DNA from: Bacteroidota bacterium
GTDB lineage: Bacteria > Bacteroidota > Ignavibacteria > Ignavibacteriales > Ignavibacteriaceae
NCBI GenBank assembly: GCA_020161395.1
Contig: JAIUOE010000003.1
Span: 62,001-126,000 of the forward strand
Length of the DNA: 64,000 nucleotides
Direction: 5' to 3'
This document shows, piece after piece, positions 42,212-60,228 of this stretch. Made by a program: the position numbers and the translations under genes. A model generated the notes under the pieces. It searched no databases. It saw only the letters and a list, made by a program, of their open reading frames with translations, and was not told the origin of the DNA. The stretch's first letter is position 1; each line of letters opens with the position of its first letter.

Positions 42212-43045
42212 CTAAAGTTCCTCGAAATAAACAAAATAATTTTGCGGAAGAGTTTTTGCGAATTCTTCCGCTTTTTTTATACTGTCAAAAATCCCAAAAA
42301 CAGTCGAACCACTGCCACTCATTAGAGCAAATTCTGCACTCTCTTTATAGAACAACTCTTTAAGTCCGCCGATTTCCGGGTGGTCAATAAAAACCGTCTC
42401 TTCAAATGCGTTTTTAATCATTTGCTGTAACTTGTTGTAATCATATGACTTTTGCTGATTTAACTCAAGCAGGTTGAATGGTGCTTTCCCCGGTTTACAG
42501 TTTTTATAAGCGGGTCCCGTTGCAACATGAATACCCGGGTTTACAACAACCATCACACCCGCGAGTTCAAAATCCAGAGGTGTGAGTATCTCACCCCTGC
42601 CTGATCCGAATGAAGGAACCGGATGAATAAAAAACGGCACATCAGAACCAAGTTCCGCTCCAAACCCGCGTAAATCTTCCTTTGTATATTTGAGATCAAA
42701 AAGGTCATTCAAACCAAGTAAAACCGATGCAGCATTTGAGGATCCCCCTCCAAGACCGGCTCCCATCGGAATTCTTTTTTCCAGACTTATCCTGCAATTA
42801 AGCTGCCTGCCTGTCTTCGATTCCATCAGTTTTACTGCTTTAAAAATGAGATTGTTTTCAATATCAATATTCAGGTCAGGACTGTCTGTCTCTATCAGAA
42901 GGTGATCACATTCCCGCATTATGATCTGGTCACACAACTCCAACGGGTAAAAAATCGTTTCAATGTTATGAAAACCATCTGCGCGTTTTTGCGTGATGAA
43001 AAGTCCAAAATTTATTTTTGCAGGTGAGTTTATTATTAGCTTCAT
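42212..43045 (-). CDS. ispE: 4-diphosphocytidyl-2-C-methyl-D-erythritol kinase
   Basis: GHMP-family kinase (277 residues) of the MEP isoprenoid pathway that phosphorylates CDP-methylerythritol. Motifs: PAKINFGLFI at 8-17 with the substrate-binding Lys, the ATP loop PMGAGLGGGSSNAASVL near 91, and ALMSGSGSTVFGIF near 239. It follows the GT9 genes by 33 bases on the same strand and is probably in their operon; it is convergent with the DHOD-like gene. Confidence 0.94.
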   Translation of the reverse strand: MKLIINSPAKINFGLFITQKRADGFHNIETIFYPLELCDQIIMRECDHLLIETDSPDLNIDIENNLIFKAVKLMESKTGRQLNCRISLEKRIPMGAGLGGGSSNAASVLLGLNDLFDLKYTKEDLRGFGAELGSDVPFFIHPVPSFGSGRGEILTPLDFELAGVMVVVNPGIHVATGPAYKNCKPGKAPFNLLELNQQKSYDYNKLQQMIKNAFEETVFIDHPEIGGLKELFYKESAEFALMSGSGSTVFGIFDSIKKAEEFAKTLPQNYFVYFEEL

Positions 43046-43078
43046 TCTGTGATATCCCGGAAATGCTCCCTCTTAAAG

Positions 43079-44200
43079 CTATTTAATCAACCTGGAGGCT
43101 GCGTCAATTACGGAATTATACATTCCATCAAGATCAATTTGATCGATGCATTCCAGCTTGTAAGGACAGCTTTTCTTCCAGCACGGGGCACACTCAAGAT
43201 CTTTCGGATAGAACATTACTCCGTGACCATAAAGATCGATCTCTGTCCAGCAACTTAAACCAAACCAGGAAACAATATATTTTTCAAGTGCAATACCCAG
43301 ATGCATCCCAAATGAATCACCTGTCACGATTATGTCTGCCAATGCCTCATAGACAGCACCCATACGAACGCCTTCATTTGTGGGAGTACTGATGACTTCG
43401 AGAGGAAATGCATTTGCTATCTCTTTGTTTCTTTCTGCATCCTCGGGACCCCCAAGAAGTATTATCCTGTAATCTGTCTCTTTCAACAATCTGTCGATAA
43501 TCTTGATGTGCTGGTCGACCCTCATTTTTTTGTTCGGAAAAAGGGTGGAACAGCCTGTATTAAATCCGATAACTATCTCTTTTTTATTGAAACTGAAGCG
43601 TTTCCTTAAGCTCTCTACCTTCTCCTTCTCTTTTTCGGTTAATTCGAAAACATATCTGGTTCTTTCGTATTCCAAATCGAGTGTTTCAGCTACATATTCC
43701 TGTTTCGTGCGTCTGTTCACCCTGAATTTTAGATGATCATCCAGCCCAAGCCGGTAGTTATACCACGCTCCGTCATTTACGGGAACAATTTTTCCGTCAG
43801 GATTCAGTCCGAATCCCTTCTTTTCATTTGCATGAATTGAATTAAGGAGTGCGCACGCCCTGTGAGATTTGTCGAGATTGGCTGCAAAATCAAACTGCAT
43901 GTTCCTCATTACATTCAGGGATTCAAAATTGTAAACGAAAACTCTTTCCAACAAAGGATTATTCTCAAGCAACGGGGCAGAAATCTTGTCGGTGACCCAA
44001 TAAATTGAAGAAACAGGATATTTTTTCTTAAGCAACGGCAACTGGGCGGTTGTCATAATTACATCGCCCATCGCATCCAGATTGATGATAAGTATCTTCA
44101 CACCTATCGGGTTATCTTCTTTGCATCCTTGTTCAAGGCAGTTATATCCGGGGAAACACGGTTTATATCCGTTGAAGTTTTTACAATTTGGAATCTTCAT
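43079..44200 (-). CDS. GT9 heptosyltransferase-like glycosyltransferase with N-terminal Cys motif
   Basis: A 373-residue GT-B enzyme of family 9, which adds heptose or related sugars to lipopolysaccharide core in the cytoplasm. The core starts at KILIINLDAMGDVIMTTAQLPLL (about 31); the C-terminal donor site includes IILLGGPEDAE and VTGDSFGMHLGIAL. An N-terminal extension carries four spaced Cys (C6, C15, C21, C26), and a C-terminal CAPCWKKSCPYKLEC cluster follows, which suggests metal binding. It overlaps its upstream neighbour by 20 bases. Confidence 0.85.
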   Translation of the reverse strand: MKIPNCKNFNGYKPCFPGYNCLEQGCKEDNPIGVKILIINLDAMGDVIMTTAQLPLLKKKYPVSSIYWVTDKISAPLLENNPLLERVFVYNFESLNVMRNMQFDFAANLDKSHRACALLNSIHANEKKGFGLNPDGKIVPVNDGAWYNYRLGLDDHLKFRVNRRTKQEYVAETLDLEYERTRYVFELTEKEKEKVESLRKRFSFNKKEIVIGFNTGCSTLFPNKKMRVDQHIKIIDRLLKETDYRIILLGGPEDAERNKEIANAFPLEVISTPTNEGVRMGAVYEALADIIVTGDSFGMHLGIALEKYIVSWFGLSCWTEIDLYGHGVMFYPKDLECAPCWKKSCPYKLECIDQIDLDGMYNSVIDAASRLIK

Positions 44201-45281
44201 AGGTCTTTACTTCACGATTTAGAAATGGTTCGAATTTTTCAATTACTTTATGCCACTGTACGAATTTTAAAGTGGGCTCCCTGGTTACAACCGCGTCGTA
44301 ACGCGTATTATACGGATACCAGATAACATCCTCGGTGTCATATTTTACATATAACCCAAAAACAGGTACACCATAAATGGAAGCCAGGTGAACTGTTGCC
44401 GTATCAGGACTAAACAAGAGGTTTATTCTCCCGATCATGGCACAAAACTCACCAAAATCCGGTGTATAGTAGGTTCTCTCGGAATATGGATCAATTTCGA
44501 GGCTCAATTTAATATCTCTGGTCGAACATAACAAAAGATATTCAATATTTTTTTCTTTAAGATACTTCACCAGGTGTCTGAAATTTTCTGTACCCCAGTA
44601 TCTTGCCAGACTCCCTGCTGAAATATTGATTCCAACTACGAATTTTCCCGGTTCAAATTTTGACTCAAAATATTTTTTGGTGACCGAAATATTCTCTTTG
44701 GTCGGAAAATATCTGATCCGGCTAAGGTCTTCGATGTTTTCATCCGGATCCATACCGGTCGTAACTTCGAATAAGTCAGCCAGTCCGAGAGATCGTTCTA
44801 TAACATGATGATCGATGGAACTTAGTCTGGGTGCCAGGTGGGTATATATCGCACCGTTCCCCTTTTCCAACCCGGCAATATATTCAGTTTTCAACTTCGT
44901 AAGAAGAAAACTGACCGTTACAGAGACATCGTCATGCAGATCCAGTACAGCTTTAAAACCCGATTTTTTGACCTGCCTGATAATCTTTTTTGTCCCTTTA
45001 CTTCCCTTCTCAAAAATGATCACCTCGTCGATGTCGGGATTGTTTCTGAAAACAAAGTGGTTGTGCCGGTCAGCCAATACTGAAATACTGCACCCGGTAA
45101 TTTTTTTTATTTTGTGGAGCAGCGGGGTAACCACTAAAGCATCCCCAATCCTGTTTAATCTGACACACAGGATCTTATCTCCCTCATTTAACACGATTTT
45201 ACCGGTTTCTTTTTTTCTTTTCCCGATAAAAAGAATCCACTTTAAAAATAGATTTTTAAAGAATATTTCAATTTTTTTCAT
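44181..45281 (-). CDS. GT9 heptosyltransferase-like glycosyltransferase
   Basis: A 366-residue paralogue of the two flanking genes: GT9 core with ILCVRLNRIGDALVVTPLLHKI near 34, GINISAGSLARYWGTENFRHL near 216, and FSPDTATVHLASIYGVPVFGLY near 289, the family's donor-binding region. It lacks the Cys motifs of its neighbours. Together the three genes look like an operon for several steps in a lipopolysaccharide or lipooligosaccharide core. It overlaps both neighbours (14 and 20 bases). Confidence 0.85.
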   Translation of the reverse strand: MKKIEIFFKNLFLKWILFIGKRKKETGKIVLNEGDKILCVRLNRIGDALVVTPLLHKIKKITGCSISVLADRHNHFVFRNNPDIDEVIIFEKGSKGTKKIIRQVKKSGFKAVLDLHDDVSVTVSFLLTKLKTEYIAGLEKGNGAIYTHLAPRLSSIDHHVIERSLGLADLFEVTTGMDPDENIEDLSRIRYFPTKENISVTKKYFESKFEPGKFVVGINISAGSLARYWGTENFRHLVKYLKEKNIEYLLLCSTRDIKLSLEIDPYSERTYYTPDFGEFCAMIGRINLLFSPDTATVHLASIYGVPVFGLYVKYDTEDVIWYPYNTRYDAVVTREPTLKFVQWHKVIEKFEPFLNREVKTYEDSKL

Positions 45282-53727: not shown

Positions 53728-53803
53728 TTTATCGTTATGTTTGAAAGTGGTAATTGATTTACAATTCATTTATCGTTAATTTTGAATCTGCAAATTTACA
53801 ATT
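53728..53803. repeat. Imperfect direct repeat in the S66 / sugar-cluster promoter region
   Basis: Two copies (53728-53766 and 53769-53803) share TTTATCGTTA, TTTGAA and ATTTACAATT in order. Each copy contains a TAnnTTTG-type -7 element (TATGTTTG and TAATTTTG). It may be a duplicated promoter or regulator site. Confidence 0.5.
53754..53784 (+). promoter_or_regulatory. Bacteroidota-type promoter of the sugar-acid cluster
   Basis: TTG and TAATTTTG separated by 20 bases, matching TTG-N(17-23)-TAnnTTTG. Transcription would start near 53791, about 30 bases before the TTG start codon at 53820. The TTG at 53754 is the -33 element, not the gene start. Confidence 0.5.
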
Positions 53804-53819
53804 TAATACGATTTATATA

Positions 53820-54926
53820 TTGCTACAAAATCAAACTGAAGCAAAAAAACGAAATATTCTTTTCATTGGCGGCTCTCTTAACCAGACCACAATGATGCAC
53901 GAGATTTCAAAGCATTTTGAGAACGACGACCTCTATTTTTCACCCTACTACGGTGACGGTTACATCCATTTGTTAAGACGGGCAGGAATTCTCGATTTCT
54001 CAATCCTTGGAGGTAAATTCTTCGAAACAACAATGAGGTACCTTGAAGAGAACAATCTTAAAATCGACTACCGGGGTTTGCAGAGAAAATATGACCTCGT
54101 TTTCACCTGTCAGGATTTGATCTTCCCGAAAAACATTAAAAATTCGAGAGTAATTCTCGTTCAGGAAGGTATGACAGACCCGGAAAACATTATGTATTAC
54201 CTCGTAAAATATCTTGGATTCCCCCGGTACGCTGCCAGCACTTCAACCACAGGACTCTCTGATTTGTACGACCGCTTTTGTGTGGCATCTGAAGGATACA
54301 AGGAACACTTCATCAAAAAAGGAATAAAAAAAGAAAAACTGGTCGTTACCGGCATTCCCAATTTTGATAATTGTGAACAGTTCCTGCGGAACGAATTTCC
54401 TCATAAAAATTTCGTTCTTGTCGCCACATCCGATGCAAGAGAAACTCTCAAATTGGAGAACCGTATAAAGTTTATAAAAGAAGCAATCAAAATAGCCGGT
54501 GGCAGACAATTGATATTTAAACTTCATCCGAACGAAAAAGTGGAGAGGGCAACCGCTGAGATCAAAGCACTTGCCCCTGATGCAATAATCTATCCGACAG
54601 GTAACATCAATGAGATGATAGCAAATGCTGATGTGCTGGTTACGCAGTACTCTTCATGTTCATATGTCGGATTGGCACTTGGCAAGGAAGTTCACTCATA
54701 CTTCAACATAGAAGACCTCAAAAAGATGCTGCCGCTCCAAAACAAAGGTACTTCAGCAAGATCGATAGCTCAGGTTGGTATGTCACTGCTTGAAATGTCA
54801 CTCGATGAAGTGAAAGGAAGCAATAATGGGGGCACAACATCCTCCAAAATCAACTTTACAGACAAATCGAAATCGATTTCAGAAACCCGGTTAAACCGTT
54901 CACTTTCCACAAGAGAGAAATTTTAG
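53820..54926 (+). CDS. GT-B-fold glycosyltransferase / epimerase-like protein
   Basis: About 368 residues from the TTG at 53820. The core starts at RNILFIGGSLNQTTMMHEI and ends with the GT-B-type KLHPNEK and ADVLVTQYSSCSYVGLALGK motifs, seen in CDP-glycerol transferases, TagF-like and UDP-GlcNAc 2-epimerase-fold enzymes. Its exact activity is not clear. A longer frame opens at 53754, but that TTG is part of the promoter. The C-terminal 40 residues are Ser/Lys-rich and disordered. First gene of the sugar-acid cluster. Confidence 0.6.
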   Translation: MLQNQTEAKKRNILFIGGSLNQTTMMHEISKHFENDDLYFSPYYGDGYIHLLRRAGILDFSILGGKFFETTMRYLEENNLKIDYRGLQRKYDLVFTCQDLIFPKNIKNSRVILVQEGMTDPENIMYYLVKYLGFPRYAASTSTTGLSDLYDRFCVASEGYKEHFIKKGIKKEKLVVTGIPNFDNCEQFLRNEFPHKNFVLVATSDARETLKLENRIKFIKEAIKIAGGRQLIFKLHPNEKVERATAEIKALAPDAIIYPTGNINEMIANADVLVTQYSSCSYVGLALGKEVHSYFNIEDLKKMLPLQNKGTSARSIAQVGMSLLEMSLDEVKGSNNGGTTSSKINFTDKSKSISETRLNRSLSTREKF

Positions 54927-54927
54927 A

Positions 54928-55737
54928 TTGATACCTGTTGAAAAAATCGCCACTGTTATTCAAGCGAGAATGTCATCTACCCGCCTTCCGTATAAAGTGA
55001 TGCTTTCTTTGGCGGGGAAACCCCTGCTACAAAGATTGTACGAAAGAGTAAATGCCTCGGTACTTAAAGGAAGTGTAATAATTGCTACCTCAACAGATTC
55101 ATCCGATGATCCTGTGGAAAATTTTTGTAAAAGTGAAGGAATCAGATGTTATCGCGGGAGTTTGAATGATCTGCTTCAAAGGCATCTTGGTGCTGCCGAA
55201 ACGATTGGTGCAGAATTCGTAATCAAGATTCCTTCAGATGTCCCGCTGATTGATACAGGGGTTATAGGACGGGTTGTTACTGAATTTTTTAGAGACGGTG
55301 CCGGTTATGATTATCTTTCCAATCTCCATCCTGCAACTTATCCTGATGGAAATGATGTGGAGATCATGAAAATTGATGCTCTACGAAAAGCTGACCGGGA
55401 GGCAACCAAAGATTTTGAAAGAGAACACACCACCCCCTATCTTTGGGAAAATCCTCACCTTTTCAAAATCGGTAATGTCACCTGGGAGACTGGTTATGAC
55501 TACTCAATGTCCCACAGATGGACCATTGATTATGAAGAGGATTACCTGTTTATCAAAACGGTGTACGACGAGCTTTGGTCGCCGGATTACCATTTTTCCA
55601 TGATTGATATTCTAAATCTGCTCGATAGAAAACCCTCAATCGCTGCAATAAACAGCAAATTTGCGGGAGTAAACTGGTACAGGCACCACCTCAACGAACT
55701 CCATACAATTTCCAGTGAACAGACCAAAATTTTATAG
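54928..55737 (+). CDS. SpsF/NeuA-like cytidylyltransferase family protein
   Basis: A 269-residue nucleotidyltransferase-fold protein. The N-terminal KIATVIQARMSSTRLPYKVM is the SpsF/CMP-sugar-synthetase signature, with the basic ARxxSxRLPxK loop; the metal-binding IPSDVPLIDTGV follows near 93. SpsF-like proteins belong to spore-coat and surface polysaccharide clusters and are predicted to activate acidic sugars with CTP. In this context it may activate the product of the NeuB-like enzyme. Start is TTG, one base after the previous stop. Confidence 0.75.
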   Translation: MIPVEKIATVIQARMSSTRLPYKVMLSLAGKPLLQRLYERVNASVLKGSVIIATSTDSSDDPVENFCKSEGIRCYRGSLNDLLQRHLGAAETIGAEFVIKIPSDVPLIDTGVIGRVVTEFFRDGAGYDYLSNLHPATYPDGNDVEIMKIDALRKADREATKDFEREHTTPYLWENPHLFKIGNVTWETGYDYSMSHRWTIDYEEDYLFIKTVYDELWSPDYHFSMIDILNLLDRKPSIAAINSKFAGVNWYRHHLNELHTISSEQTKIL

Positions 55738-55764
55738 TAGTTAGAAAAACAAGAAAGTATTTGA

Positions 55765-57102
55765 ATGAGCAATAAAATAGCGTTTAACGAGAATTATCCT
55801 GACATCTCCGAGTCGAATAAACTTTATGAGAGATCGAAGGGGCTTATCCCTGCCTTCACTCAGACTCTGGCAAAAGGACCCGCACAATATGTAAACGGTG
55901 TCGCACCCAAATATCTGAAAAGAGGTAAAAACGCCCATGTCTGGGATGTGGATGGAAACGAGTATATTGATCTGAATATGGCTATCGGTCCTCTCTCTCT
56001 CGGTTACGCCATCCCTGAAATTGATCAGGCGATAAAAGATCAACTGGAAGACGGCATCACCTTCTCATTGATGCATCCGTTGGAAGTTGAAGTCGCAGAA
56101 TTGATTAGAGAAGTGGTGCCAAATACTGAATCGGTGAGATACAGCAAGACTGGTGCCGATGTGGTAAGTGCTGCTGTTCGCCTGGCAAGAGCTTTTACAA
56201 AAAAGAATAAAATCCTCTGTTGTGGATATCACGGGTGGCACGACTGGTATATTTCTGTCACCGATCGCAACGCAGGTATTCCTAAAGTAATTGAGGATAT
56301 GAGTTTTACAATCAATTACAACGACATCCAATCGGTAATCGATTCGATCGATGAAGATGTCGCATGCATTATCCTTGAGCCTTTCGTTTTTCAGGAACCA
56401 AGAGATAATTTTCTTCAGGAACTAAGAAGAATCTGTGATGAAAAAGGGATACTTCTTGTTTTCGATGAAATGTGGACAGGATTTCGCGTAGCCCTCGGAG
56501 GTGCACAGGAGTATTTTGGAGTAAGGGCGGACCTCGCTCTCTTCTCAAAGGCAGTTGCAAATGGAATGCCAATCGGCATCCTGACAGGCAGGAAGGACAT
56601 TATGGCACTGCTTGACAAGGATGTGTTTTTCTTCACGACTTTTGGTGGTGAAGCCCTCTCGTTAGCCGCAACCAAAGCTACGATTGAGTTCATGAAGAAG
56701 AACAATGTGCAGGGTGTAATAGCAGAAAAAGGAAGAAAACTGAAGGATGGCTATAATAAAATTGCCGCGGAACTCGGAATGAATTACACTTCATGTTCAG
56801 GATTCGACTGCAGAACCATTATGTCGTTTGACGCCTCCGCCGGAAATCCCCTTGAAATGAAATCACTTGTTCAGCAGGAAATGATAAAGAGAGGAGTGCT
56901 CTGGGGCGGATTCCACAATGTAAGTTTTTCACTCACTGATGAGGACATAGAACATGTGATTGCCTGCTACAGAGAAGTGCTCCCCATATTAAAAAAAGCA
57001 GTTCAGGATGGCAATGTTAAGGAATTGCTTCGCGGTGAACCAGTCGGACCTGTCTTCCGTAAAACATCGAATTTCAATATGAAACCCAGGAATATAGGTT
57101 AA
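55765..57102 (+). CDS. Class III aminotransferase (glutamate-1-semialdehyde aminomutase-like)
   Basis: A PLP enzyme of 445 residues, fold type I, class III. It shows YSKTGADVVSAAVRLARAFT, the YHGWHDWY substrate loop, the cofactor Asp in LLVFDEMWTGFR, and the Schiff-base Lys in ALFSKAVANGMP. Similarity is to the GSA aminomutase group, but the position between SpsF- and SDR-type sugar genes suggests transamination of a sugar intermediate rather than haem synthesis. This is an inference; a haem role would need hem genes nearby, and none are present. Confidence 0.8.
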   Translation: MSNKIAFNENYPDISESNKLYERSKGLIPAFTQTLAKGPAQYVNGVAPKYLKRGKNAHVWDVDGNEYIDLNMAIGPLSLGYAIPEIDQAIKDQLEDGITFSLMHPLEVEVAELIREVVPNTESVRYSKTGADVVSAAVRLARAFTKKNKILCCGYHGWHDWYISVTDRNAGIPKVIEDMSFTINYNDIQSVIDSIDEDVACIILEPFVFQEPRDNFLQELRRICDEKGILLVFDEMWTGFRVALGGAQEYFGVRADLALFSKAVANGMPIGILTGRKDIMALLDKDVFFFTTFGGEALSLAATKATIEFMKKNNVQGVIAEKGRKLKDGYNKIAAELGMNYTSCSGFDCRTIMSFDASAGNPLEMKSLVQQEMIKRGVLWGGFHNVSFSLTDEDIEHVIACYREVLPILKKAVQDGNVKELLRGEPVGPVFRKTSNFNMKPRNIG

Positions 57103-57103
57103 A

Positions 57104-57925
57104 ATGGAAAATATATTTAGCCTGTCCGGAAAGGTTGCAATTGTAACAGGTTCACTCGGACTGATCGGAAAAAATCACTGCCGGGCTCTTATAAATGCTG
57201 GAGCGAATGTTGTGGTCACCGATATAAATGGTGCGCAATGTGAAGAGTTTGCACGGGAAATCTCCCCTGACAATGACTCGACAAAAGTAATTGGTTTCGG
57301 AGCAGACATTACTTCTCCAAAGGAAATAGAGAATCTGCGTGATTTCACTTTGGAAAGATTGGGAAGAATCGACATTCTCGTCAATAATGCTGCAATTAAC
57401 GACAAATTTGAAGATCCCGCAGCACTTTTTGAGCAATCCAAATTTGAGAACTACCCTCTTGACCTGTGGAACAAGTCCCTGACTGTAAATGTCACCGGTA
57501 TGTTTCTTTGTTCTCAAATTATTGGTAAAGTGATGGCAGATGCAGGTAAAGGCAGCATTATAAATGTCGCTTCAACTTACGGGGTTGTTGCTCCCAATCA
57601 GGACCTGTATATAGATTCTGAAGGAGTTCAGAAATTCTATAAAACTCCTGCCTATCCTGTAACCAAAGGAGCGGTAATCTCATTCACAAAATATCTCGCC
57701 GCCTATTGGGGTGAAAAGGGGGTCAGGGTAAACACTCTCACGCCCGGCGGAGTCGAGAACAATCAGGATGAGTATTTTATAAATGAATATTCAAAACGCA
57801 CACCATTAAAAAGGATGGCTCAACCTGATGATTACATGGGGGCGCTTGTTTTCCTCGCATCAGATTCCTCCTCTTACATGACAGGAGCCAACCTTGTGGT
57901 TGATGGAGGATTCACAATATGGTAG
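57104..57925 (+). CDS. SDR-family oxidoreductase
   Basis: A 273-residue short-chain dehydrogenase: cofactor loop TGSLGLIGKNH near 15, NNAAIND near 91, the catalytic Ser in NVASTYG, and YPVTK as the YxxxK motif (about 185). C-terminal MTGANLVVDGGF is the classical SDR ending. It probably reduces or oxidises a sugar hydroxyl. It lies between the aminotransferase (one-base gap) and the KdsC-like gene (seven-base overlap). Confidence 0.88.
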   Translation: MENIFSLSGKVAIVTGSLGLIGKNHCRALINAGANVVVTDINGAQCEEFAREISPDNDSTKVIGFGADITSPKEIENLRDFTLERLGRIDILVNNAAINDKFEDPAALFEQSKFENYPLDLWNKSLTVNVTGMFLCSQIIGKVMADAGKGSIINVASTYGVVAPNQDLYIDSEGVQKFYKTPAYPVTKGAVISFTKYLAAYWGEKGVRVNTLTPGGVENNQDEYFINEYSKRTPLKRMAQPDDYMGALVFLASDSSSYMTGANLVVDGGFTIW

Positions 57926-58449
57926 ATTTGTCAGGACTTAAGATTCCTCTCGATGAGGCAGTCTTAAAAGCAAAAAAATTAAAAATAATCATCACTGATG
58001 TTGACGGAGTTCTTACCGATACTGGGGTTTTTTATTCCGCAGAAGGGGAAGCGATGAAAAGGTTTTCCATCAGGGACGGAATGGGAGTCGAAAGACTGCG
58101 CACTGAGTGTGGAGTTGATACAGGTATCATGACCGGTGAAAACTCGCCGGCTGTCACGAAACGGGCGGAAAAACTGAAAATCGTTCACTATTTCCCTGGA
58201 ATAAAAGACAAAAAATCAGTCTTCCGGGAAATTATTGCTTCAGGAAATTTTTCACCGGAAGAAATAGCATTCATTGGAGACGATTACAACGATATCGGCA
58301 TTATTGAAGAGGCAGCTTTCACGGCTTCCCCTGCCGATGGAATGCCGTATATCAGATCCCTTGTTGATTATGTCTGTTCAGTGAATGCGGGTTATGGTGC
58401 CTTTAGAGATTTTGCCGAACTGATAATCCATCTCAGGCAGAATTATTAA
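57919..58449 (+). CDS. KdsC-like HAD phosphatase
   Basis: A 176-residue HAD phosphatase without a cap, like KdsC, which dephosphorylates KDO-8-phosphate. Nucleophile motif ITDVDGVLTD (Asp27, Asp29), MTGEN at 71-75, Lys99 of motif III, and GDDYND at 120-125. Next to a NeuB-type synthase the natural role is removing phosphate from a nonulosonic acid or a related 3-deoxy sugar acid. Four-base start coupling with the SDR gene is likely. Confidence 0.85.
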   Translation: MVDLSGLKIPLDEAVLKAKKLKIIITDVDGVLTDTGVFYSAEGEAMKRFSIRDGMGVERLRTECGVDTGIMTGENSPAVTKRAEKLKIVHYFPGIKDKKSVFREIIASGNFSPEEIAFIGDDYNDIGIIEEAAFTASPADGMPYIRSLVDYVCSVNAGYGAFRDFAELIIHLRQNY

Positions 58450-58495
58450 CCAATCGGGTTTGAACAGGTATTTTACAAGTTAAGCGGACCAAATT

Positions 58496-58507
58496 CTTAT
58501 ATATAAG
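58496..58507. promoter_or_regulatory. 12-bp palindrome CTTATATATAAG before the NeuB-like gene
   Basis: A perfect palindrome overlapping the Shine-Dalgarno (AAGAGG) of the next gene. In a 67-base gap it is the only notable structure; it could be a -10 region, an operator or a short mRNA hairpin. Confidence 0.3.
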
Positions 58508-58516
58508 AGGTTTTTT

Positions 58517-59398
58517 TTGAGAAATGAAAGATTAATTAAGGTTGGTAATCGATTTATTGGTGACGGACAACCTTGTTTTGTGATTGCCGAGATTGGCATC
58601 AATCATAATGGATCAGTTGAAATTGCTAAAAAACTGATAGACGGAGCTGCAAATGCAGGATGCGACGCAGTCAAATTTCAGAAGCGGACTCCCGAAATTT
58701 GTGTACCCAGGGATCAGTGGAATATCGAGAGAGACACTCCATGGGGCAGAATGACCTATATCGATTACCGTCACAGAATGGAGTTTACACCCGACCAGTT
58801 TGGAGAAATAGCAGAACATTGCAGGGCAAAAGGAATTGAGTGGTTCGCTTCGTGCTGGGATGAAGATGCTGTCGATTTTATTGAAGAGTTCAATCCCTCA
58901 CTTTATAAAATCGCATCTGCTTCCCTGACTGACCATAATCTGTTAAAAAAACATGTAAATTTGGCAAAACCATGTATTTTGTCTACAGGAATGTCGACGA
59001 TAGATGAAATTGAAGAAGCCGTTGAAGTTTTTGATATTGAAAATCTTTTACTGGCTCACGCTACTTCAACTTATCCTTGTCCACTTGAGGAACTAAACCT
59101 GAAGATGATTTTAACTCTCAAAACCATGTACCCTCACACTGTAATTGGTTACTCAGGTCACGAGACGGGTCTGGCACCAACCGAGGCTGCTGTTGCAATG
59201 GGTGCAGCTTTTGTAGAACGACATATTACCCTCGACAGGGCAATGTGGGGCTCTGATCAGGCTGCTTCAGTAGAAGTCGGAGGATTTGCGAAGCTTGTCG
59301 CCAATATCAGAGATATCGAGACAGCTCTGGGTGACGGTATCAAAAAAGTTTATGAGAGCGAAAAAGGTCCAAGGAAAAAACTGAGAAGAGTATTGTAG
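58517..59398 (+). CDS. NeuB-family sugar-acid synthase (no SAF domain)
   Basis: A 293-residue TIM barrel of the NeuB/SpsE family, which condenses phosphoenolpyruvate with an amino sugar to give a nonulosonic acid. Motifs: AEIGINHNG at 24-32, AVKFQKRTPE near 53, LSTGMST, ATSTYPCP and YSGHETG. Two oddities: the C-terminal SAF/antifreeze-like domain of standard NeuB (about 350 residues) is absent, and the usual GPDH of the LDRxM loop reads GSDQAAS. Start is TTG with AAGAGG upstream. Confidence 0.85.
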   Translation: MRNERLIKVGNRFIGDGQPCFVIAEIGINHNGSVEIAKKLIDGAANAGCDAVKFQKRTPEICVPRDQWNIERDTPWGRMTYIDYRHRMEFTPDQFGEIAEHCRAKGIEWFASCWDEDAVDFIEEFNPSLYKIASASLTDHNLLKKHVNLAKPCILSTGMSTIDEIEEAVEVFDIENLLLAHATSTYPCPLEELNLKMILTLKTMYPHTVIGYSGHETGLAPTEAAVAMGAAFVERHITLDRAMWGSDQAASVEVGGFAKLVANIRDIETALGDGIKKVYESEKGPRKKLRRVL

Positions 59399-59409
59399 GA
59401 GAGTCTGTT

Positions 59410-60228
59410 TTGGAAATCATCATAAATTTCATAAAAAATTACCTGCTAAATCTTGACACAGCGACTGTTGTAACAGGTTCGATAATCGTCATCTTCGCCA
59501 TAACCCTCATACTTCTCGAAAAAAAATTTCCCTACACAAAAGGGCAAAAGCTCCTTCGTGAGGGATTTTTCAACGATCTTGTTCTTTACACCATTGTTCA
59601 GTCGTATGTTTTGGGACTTGTCATCGGTGAATTAATTAAGTTTATCGACAGTCAGACCGGCATCCAAAGATACCAGCTTCTTACGGATGTGCCGGTGTGG
59701 ATTATCGTACTCGGCTCCCTCTTCTTTCACGATTTCTATATCTACTGGTTCCACAGGTGGATGCACAACAACAAATATTTGTGGAGACTGCATGAGGCTC
59801 ATCACTCGACGAAGGAGGTTGACTGGTTGTCGGGCTCCCGGTCACATGCTCTGGAAATCCTGATCAACCAGACTGTTGAGTTTGCCCCTTTCATTCTGTT
59901 GGGCGCTCCTGCTGAGGCTGCCATTATTAAAGGGTGTATTTCCGCTGTCTGGGGAATGTGGATTCATGCGAATCTCGATGTCCACACCGGGAAACTCCAC
60001 TACATAATTAACGGACCTGAAATGCACCGCTGGCACCATTCAGACAAACACGAGGAAGCCTATAACACCAATTATGCAACCAAGTTTGCTTTCTGGGATT
60101 ATCTTTTTGGGTCTGCTTTCTTCCCTGATGGCGAAAAACCAAAATATTACGGATTGTCTGAGTTTTTCCCCTCAAATTATGTAAAACAGTTCTTCTACGC
60201 ATTCAGAAGGATGAGAGAAGAGGGATGA
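59410..60228 (+). CDS. Sterol desaturase / fatty acid hydroxylase family protein
   Basis: A di-iron membrane oxygenase of 272 residues with four hydrophobic segments and the three His boxes: HDFYIYWFHRWMH near 109, LHEAHHSTKE near 129, and MHRWHHSDKHEEAYNTNY near 204. It probably hydroxylates or desaturates a lipid. TTG start with GGAGAG upstream. The last seven or eight codons and the stop are made of units of the 14-base repeat array (60206-60310), so its C-terminus may be a late addition. Possibly unrelated in function to the sugar genes. Confidence 0.85.
   Translation: MEIIINFIKNYLLNLDTATVVTGSIIVIFAITLILLEKKFPYTKGQKLLREGFFNDLVLYTIVQSYVLGLVIGELIKFIDSQTGIQRYQLLTDVPVWIIVLGSLFFHDFYIYWFHRWMHNNKYLWRLHEAHHSTKEVDWLSGSRSHALEILINQTVEFAPFILLGAPAEAAIIKGCISAVWGMWIHANLDVHTGKLHYIINGPEMHRWHHSDKHEEAYNTNYATKFAFWDYLFGSAFFPDGEKPKYYGLSEFFPSNYVKQFFYAFRRMREEG

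Follow-up and report, generated by a model that had tools for sequence, protein, structure and literature searches.

A conserved gene cluster with a transketolase partner from an Ignavibacteriaceae genome, probably a pathway for an aminated sialic-acid-like sugar

The DNA stretch analyzed here (the window) comprises 64,000 nucleotides of contig JAIUOE010000003.1 (positions 62,001 to 126,000, assembly GCA_020161395.1) from a Bacteroidota bacterium of the family Ignavibacteriaceae. Between positions 53754 and 60228, it contains seven open reading frames (ORFs) on a single strand, with a largest gap of 67 bases and an overlap between the genes for a short-chain dehydrogenase/reductase (SDR) and a HAD phosphatase. 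This gene set, joined by a transketolase (TK) encoded elsewhere in the genome, is probably an undescribed bacterial pathway that builds and aminates a sialic-acid-like sugar. The seven genes are as follows.

53754..54926, + strand: GT-B protein, probable cytidine monophosphate (CMP)-ulosonate transferase (fold model and invariant QEG/HP motifs; predicted glycosyltransferase (GT) role)
54928..55737, + strand: SpsF-type cytidylyltransferase, probable CMP-ulosonate synthetase (Pfam CTP_transf_3, 5.1e-27; solved cytidylyltransferase 6oew, 2.8e-39)
55765..57102, + strand: class III pyridoxal phosphate-dependent aminotransferase (AT) of the PRK06209 group, GSAM-like (Pfam Aminotran_3, 4.3e-49)
57104..57925, + strand: classical SDR dehydrogenase (Pfam adh_short_C2, 2.5e-51)
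57919..58449, + strand: HAD phosphatase of the KdsC/KDN-9-phosphatase family (Pfam HAD hydrolase, 1.4e-8)
58517..59398, + strand: NeuB-family synthase without SAF domain (Pfam NeuB, 5e-76; PF03102, 255.8 bits; PDB relatives)
59410..60228, + strand: FA_hydroxylase-family (FAH), sterol desaturase-like membrane protein (Pfam FA_hydroxylase, 2.3e-29)

Both the ORFs and their Pfam matches agree with the gene order given in a preliminary description of the locus (GT-B protein, SpsF, AT, SDR, phosphatase, NeuB, and desaturase). That description saw neither a dehydratase nor a DegT aminotransferase, which holds for the seven genes, as in none of them is the best Pfam match a family of dehydratases, DegT aminotransferases, or acetyltransferases. 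NeuB (293 amino acids) has the NeuB domain at residues 40-276 as its sole Pfam match and thus lacks a SAF domain. The first ORF lies under every Pfam cut-off (Glyphos_transf at 19.4 bits and Epimerase_2 at 19.2 bits, both below gathering); its conserved part begins near KKRNILFIGG, and the real start is probably at 53820 or further in. Among the NCBIfam models, the AT scores highest on PRK06209 (NF004856, 366 bits against a cut-off of 486), and its assignment as HemL/GSAM proper was rejected (TIGR00713, 240.6 bits against a cut-off of 527.3). The SDR shows a near tie between PRK09186 (191.1 bits) and PRK08213 (189.4 bits), both below cut-off, and the FAH protein reaches 118.9 bits on the OlsE model NF052566 (cut-off 475).

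The conservation of the cluster, which the preliminary description had proposed to check, was followed through the AT. A scan delivered 576 relatives, and the analysis used the 80 best-scoring loci (denoted L) among them; the closest named records include Ignavibacteria metagenome-assembled genomes (MAGs). The loci with an AT profile score above 650, together with the fragment L076, make up 43 core loci, and the other 37, the distant loci, sample only what lies within the best 80 of 576. The set recurs in the core loci in variably complete form, with SpsF and SDR in 39 each, GT and NeuB in 37 each, TK in 34, FAH in 30, and HAD in 27; these counts are lower bounds, several loci ending at contig edges. 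The PseB/PseC motif was found in 0 of the 43. L020, L021, L027, and L029 encode a HAD-NeuB fusion. On a plasmid of the gammaproteobacterium Methylomagnum (NZ_AP019784.1, L107), GT, SpsF, the N- and C-terminal TK parts (TKN and TKC), AT, SDR, NeuB, and HAD form a single run, and the AT is 59.9% identical. Among the distant loci, 12 carry the PseB/PseC motif, one (L070) a TK, and 22 a NeuB, whose length is that of a SAF-less form in L053, L070, and L075 alone. A chance neighborhood was rejected because the arrangement repeats across loci and the genes co-occur genome-wide.

In most core loci, two genes matching the Pfam N- and C-terminal transketolase parts are situated between SpsF and the AT (four loci checked). 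In L014, both parts constitute a single protein within the cluster, which is 58% identical to a fused TK of the window's own genome. The latter (659 amino acids, contig C11:23206-25182) lies outside the window, is distinct from the transketolase with the best Pfam score on contig C1, and contains both the thiamine diphosphate motif GDGE and IAEQ with the catalytic Glu of the pyrimidine domain. Likewise, the Asp and Glu of the motif are present in 33 of 33 split TK seeds and the catalytic Glu in 34 of 34. Apart from the window, six core loci (L007, L011, L039, L042, L044, and L045) have no TK inside the cluster. When 31 genomes were checked (the own genome and those of 30 of the 43 core loci), a fused TK, 68-70% identical to the own copy, was found outside the fetched locus in four of the six. 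The own copy scored 1505 bits and these four relatives 1012-1052 bits, while the 23 genomes with a split pair never exceeded 250 bits. The seven genes listed in the preliminary description are therefore real, but the list is incomplete, since TK belongs to the set, split in most relatives and fused elsewhere in the own genome.

Genome-wide co-occurrence was determined in 148 genomes of the phylum (at least 90% complete, 83 genera) with E-value thresholds that we set to part close relatives from general family members (AT 1e-90, SDR 1e-75, FAH 1e-50, NeuB 1e-60, split TK 1e-55, and fused TK 1e-90). The AT is present in 34 genomes (27 of the 83 genera), and the SDR in exactly the same 34, being kept even where it is unlinked from the AT (genomes G035, G109, G155, G163, and G167). 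Split TK occurs in 29 genomes (22 genera) and fused TK in four (four genera), always within the AT set and never together, so that one form accompanies the AT in 33 of 34 genomes vs 0 of 114 others. No more than 5 kb separates the AT from the split TK in 27 of 29 genomes and from NeuB in 28 of 34. FAH is a likely pathway member because it is present in all 34 AT genomes, even when distant from the AT; outside this set it was found in G158 only. The gene set is thus real and widely inherited in the phylum. G158 has no AT or TK matches and contains a NeuB fragment beside FAH (contig C116:13744-15029), the set there being either decayed or incomplete.

NeuB accompanies the AT in all 34 genomes and also occurs in 32 others, which comprise 30 members of one family (f17, 65-71% identity), G137 (42%), and G158 (the fragment). 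All 32 are without TK, and the 30 from f17 also without SDR. In the three f17 genomes that were inspected (L095-L097), the HAD phosphatase and NeuB stand as a pair alone, which is probably a simple Kdn-type pathway (Kdn, 2-keto-3-deoxynononic acid). In five stretches from families f15 and f30 (L098, L099, L101, L104, and L105), the AT is at least 9 kb away from NeuB or on another contig. There, NeuB is found with FAH in five of five, with HAD in L098, L099, L104, and L105, and with SDR in L099 and L105, whereas TKN-TKC is close to the AT in L100 and L105. Owing to these f17 pairs and f15/f30 stretches, TK sorts with the AT and not with NeuB, and HAD-NeuB is able to be its own unit. A role of TK in supplying the NeuB substrate is weakened by the 32 NeuB genomes without TK, 30 of them from one family.

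The residues of the HAD phosphatase point to Kdn as the base sugar. Its nearest solved chain is 3e81, which we take to be BT1713, the Kdn-9-phosphatase of Bacteroides thetaiotaomicron. Two columns set the chains 4hgq and 4hgr apart from 3e81, and in these 38 of 39 family HADs (the window counted twice) have Glu/Lys and one has Glu/Arg; the window HAD itself has E and K, and Haemophilus influenzae KdsC has Arg/Asp. The Glu/Lys pair is presumably a specificity determinant, as the variant chains 4hgq and 4hgr suggest. The top NCBIfam model of the window HAD is the KDN-9-phosphatase NF058599, on which two relatives score 138.6 and 161.2 bits. The formation of Kdn-9-phosphate from mannose-6-phosphate, followed by a phosphatase, is an established route (PMC6200933).

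We propose, with moderate confidence, that the cluster makes a Kdn-type ulosonic acid that is activated with CMP and carries a modification, probably an amino substituent; its substrates and product are inferred. NeuB would join phosphoenolpyruvate and a hexose 6-phosphate, probably mannose-6-phosphate, after which the HAD phosphatase would strip the 9-phosphate to yield a Kdn-like acid. The SDR would then oxidize a side-chain hydroxyl, most likely that at C8, and the dedicated TK and the class III AT would work on the resulting carbonyl to install an amine. SpsF would subsequently link CMP to the acid, the GT-B enzyme would pass it on to an acceptor, and the membrane-bound FAH might modify the lipid acceptor or a lipid-borne part. 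This agrees with the preliminary description insofar as a nonulosonate-type cluster with an unusual enzyme set was described there, which is conserved and for which no description was found in the papers searched. Its suggestion that AT and SDR make the NeuB substrate is less supported, given the f17 NeuB without AT, SDR, and TK and the KDN-type residue pair of the HAD, and its alternative, in which a sugar acid that already exists is modified, is the better fit, as NeuB-HAD occur without these three enzymes.

Oxidation followed by amination, most likely at C8, is suggested by the following observations. EpaA and EpaB (a CTP_transf_3 protein and an oxidoreductase) act at C8 to yield 8-epi-pseudaminic acid (PMC12053666). 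Pse-type loci contain an AT near SpsF plus an aldo-keto reductase (L052) or a Gfo/Idh enzyme (L050), and Aeromonas group I islands are described as having a keto reductase along with an aminotransferase of class III (PMC7874193). An 8-amino-nonulosonic acid is reported in the O-antigen of Flexibacter maritimus (PMC3210612).

For the TK step, our preferred form is that 8-keto-Kdn loses C8-C9 to TK and that the AT converts the remaining C7 aldehyde to a terminal amine, which is a tentative idea and on balance doubtful. Such a cleavage is proposed because 8-keto-Kdn ends in HOCH2-CO-, the unit that transketolase cleaves. In pse-type products, C9 is expected to be a methyl group. TK was absent from 12 of 12 loci with the PseB/PseC motif, and its lack in these loci, together with its presence in most core loci (where a C9 hydroxyl is expected), is what would be predicted if TK acted on 8-keto-Kdn. 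A simpler form is direct 8-amination, with TK in another role. The end product of the cleavage form, a shortened nonulosonic acid (7-amino-3,7-dideoxy-heptulosonic acid) that is CMP-activated and set on a hydroxylated membrane lipid, is rather unlikely as a whole; if true, Bacteroidota-like bacteria would make ulosonic acid glycolipids of a new class.

In Bacillus subtilis, the transfer of legionaminic acid requires SpsF (PMC7439481). The GT model (pLDDT 85.8) adopts a GT-B fold, whose best Z-scores are obtained with NeuC/UDP-GlcNAc 2-epimerases (up to 18.1), followed by TagF (15.4) and a polysialyltransferase (14.6), and the top Foldseek rows list a CMP-bound capsule enzyme (TM 0.42-0.45). 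Its QEG (residues 137-139) and HP (258-259) are invariant in 31 aligned sequences and resemble the D/E-D/E-G and HP motifs of sialyltransferases. In the Pelagibacteraceae locus L070, a GT29 sialyltransferase gene adjoins SpsF. Regarding the acceptor, an MFS gene annotated as lplT overlaps the HAD gene on the Methylomagnum plasmid and is followed by genes for an N-acyltransferase and a lysophospholipid acyltransferase, and these neighbors together with the FAH family faintly hint at a lipid.

Several observations weigh against this interpretation. The nearest folds of the GT are the NeuC-type epimerases, FAH was not found in the 19-kb Methylomagnum plasmid stretch, and the HAD remains below the curated KDN-9-phosphatase cut-off (142.7 vs 180 bits), with the KdsC model NF007019 nearly equal at 133.8 bits. 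For the HAD, 11 of the 37 NeuB-bearing core loci came up empty within the stretch, in a search that did not extend to the 148 genomes. L039 and L044 come from MAGs in which no fused TK turned up, and G049 is the lone AT genome without a clear TK, showing only short frames with 45% identity for the N part and 34% for the C part. In several active-site columns, the residues of the split TKs are not those of human transketolase, and L053 and L075 combine a NeuB of SAF-less length and an AT with no TK in the stretch. The Fisher test for co-occurrence (3.4e-32) ignores kinship. Finally, NeuB without AT is essentially confined to a single family, so its separability may reflect one event, which lowers our confidence in the proposed pathway and raises that in an amination before the NeuB step.

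According to the latter explanation, AT and SDR (with TK) form an amino sugar, and NeuB condenses a novel amino-aldose. The constant company of NeuB and AT would fit, and transketolases are able to make unusual aldoses. Nonetheless, it appears unlikely in view of the 30 f17 genomes, where the HAD is the only neighbor of NeuB in the three inspected, and of the KDN-9-phosphatase-type residue pair in the HAD. A second alternative divides the set in two: NeuB, HAD, SpsF, and GT would deliver plain Kdn or sialic acid, and AT, TK, SDR, and FAH would serve another molecule (such as an amino-polyol or a lipid group), which either becomes attached to this acid or is just inherited alongside. The distance between NeuB and AT in the five f15/f30 stretches, the best model of FAH (the ornithine-lipid hydroxylase OlsE, far below cut-off), and the lplT-annotated MFS gene and the acyltransferase genes that adjoin the set in Methylomagnum would all be in line with it. 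It is made quite improbable by SpsF-AT fusions in six of the 37 distant loci (L054, L057, L061, L068, L078, and L079) and by the SDRs of other nonulosonic acid clusters (L085, L053, and L075), whose scores with the SDR profile of the core loci are 199-256 bits.

A pathway for 3-deoxy-D-manno-octulosonic acid (Kdo, eight carbons) or 8-amino-Kdo, with NeuB replacing KdsA, is very improbable. Here, the top NCBIfam models of SpsF are Kdo cytidylyltransferases (every one below cut-off), the HAD exceeds the cut-off of the KdsC-family model TIGR01670, a KdsC-family search found no second clear KdsC in the window's own genome, and 8-amino-Kdo is known from Shewanella (PMC3210612). However, a separate, true KdsA is encoded elsewhere in eight of eight genomes tested, a KdsC-family match adjoins it in six of the eight (three below cut-off), and the HAD has the residue pair of 3e81. 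Least probable of all is that the first ORF is a NeuC-like hydrolyzing epimerase that supplies ManNAc for sialic acid. Its Epimerase_2 score and best fold matches speak for this reading; against it stand that score lying below cut-off, a consensus of SDxRET in the segment expected to hold the epimerase His, and the fact that free ManNAc would need no phosphatase.

A separate observation concerns contig C6 of the same genome (positions 50000-68000, L085), where a NeuB of 365 amino acids, NeuC, a CBS-nucleotidyltransferase, a NeuA-like CTP_transf_3 protein, a Gfo/Idh enzyme, an SDR, NAD-epimerases, and a UDP-sugar dehydrogenase are encoded, with no aminotransferase among the genes scanned. The window cluster as the only nonulosonic acid pathway of the genome was hence rejected, C6 holding a separate NeuB/NeuC/NeuA cluster with its own SDR. 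In the window itself, the minus strand carries, at 42212-45281 and thus 8-12 kb upstream of the cluster, a GHMP kinase gene and a pair of GT9 heptosyltransferase-like genes. Promoter-like sites (14 vs a shuffled mean of 13.1) and terminator-like sites (3 vs 5.7) are at shuffle level.

Members of the set were also observed in viral records. The AT is encoded by 20 uncultivated contigs (L108-L127) whose viral status is as recorded, 13 of which have a NeuB match and 11 a SpsF match; L114 and L115 appear to be one virus. The marine virus L106 (MH319754.1, Kyanoviridae, 75839-94600) encodes an SDR, a SpsF-profile match, and a NeuB of 278 amino acids, which reaches 340 bits with the NeuB profile of the core loci. 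A phage search with the SDR matched 125 records; among the 25 listed, the top one was a marine virus at 40.7% identity and the rest reached at most 32%.

Known systems share parts of this set. The Kdn pathway of B. thetaiotaomicron and Prymnesium parvum also comprises a NeuB-family synthase, a Kdn-9-phosphatase, and a CMP-Kdn synthetase and starts from mannose-6-phosphate (PMC6200933). Unlike the set described here, it is not known to involve an aminotransferase, SDR, transketolase, or FA-hydroxylase. EpaA/EpaB and AciE (Acinetobacter; C8 epimerization of pseudaminic/acinetaminic acid) likewise employ a CTP_transf_3 protein and an SDR on a nonulosonate, but they epimerize rather than aminate, act on a 9-deoxy substrate, and come with no mention of a transketolase in the accessible part of PMC12053666. 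The pse-type clusters (for example, Aeromonas group I flagellin islands) have an AT of the PRK06209 group (the best model in L049 and L052) near SpsF and NeuB, yet they carry PseB/PseC and NeuB ORFs of 350-426 amino acids where seen (11 of 12), with no TK in the 12 loci. Legionaminic, pseudaminic, and neuraminic acid pathways have NeuB and CMP activation in common with the cluster, in whose seven genes, however, no dehydratase, DegT aminotransferase, or acetyltransferase match occurs and whose NeuB is SAF-less. A described pathway with the same gene set, which the preliminary description had considered, was not found in the open-licence papers searched, nor was any description that includes the transketolase.

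TK is an enzyme that is not expected in a sialic-acid-like pathway, and the proposed pathway would connect the chemistry of sialic-acid-like sugars with a transketolase and with a hydroxylase of the lipid type. Since the AT occurs in about a third of the genera sampled, along with SDR, NeuB, FAH, and, in all genomes but one, TK, the product is probably a common surface component that is undescribed in the literature searched. Among the AT relatives are named records that bear no MAG label (Hymenobacter, Mucilaginibacter, Aquirufa, and Taibaiella), which makes the pathway open to testing, and it may supply genes for amino-ulosonic acids.

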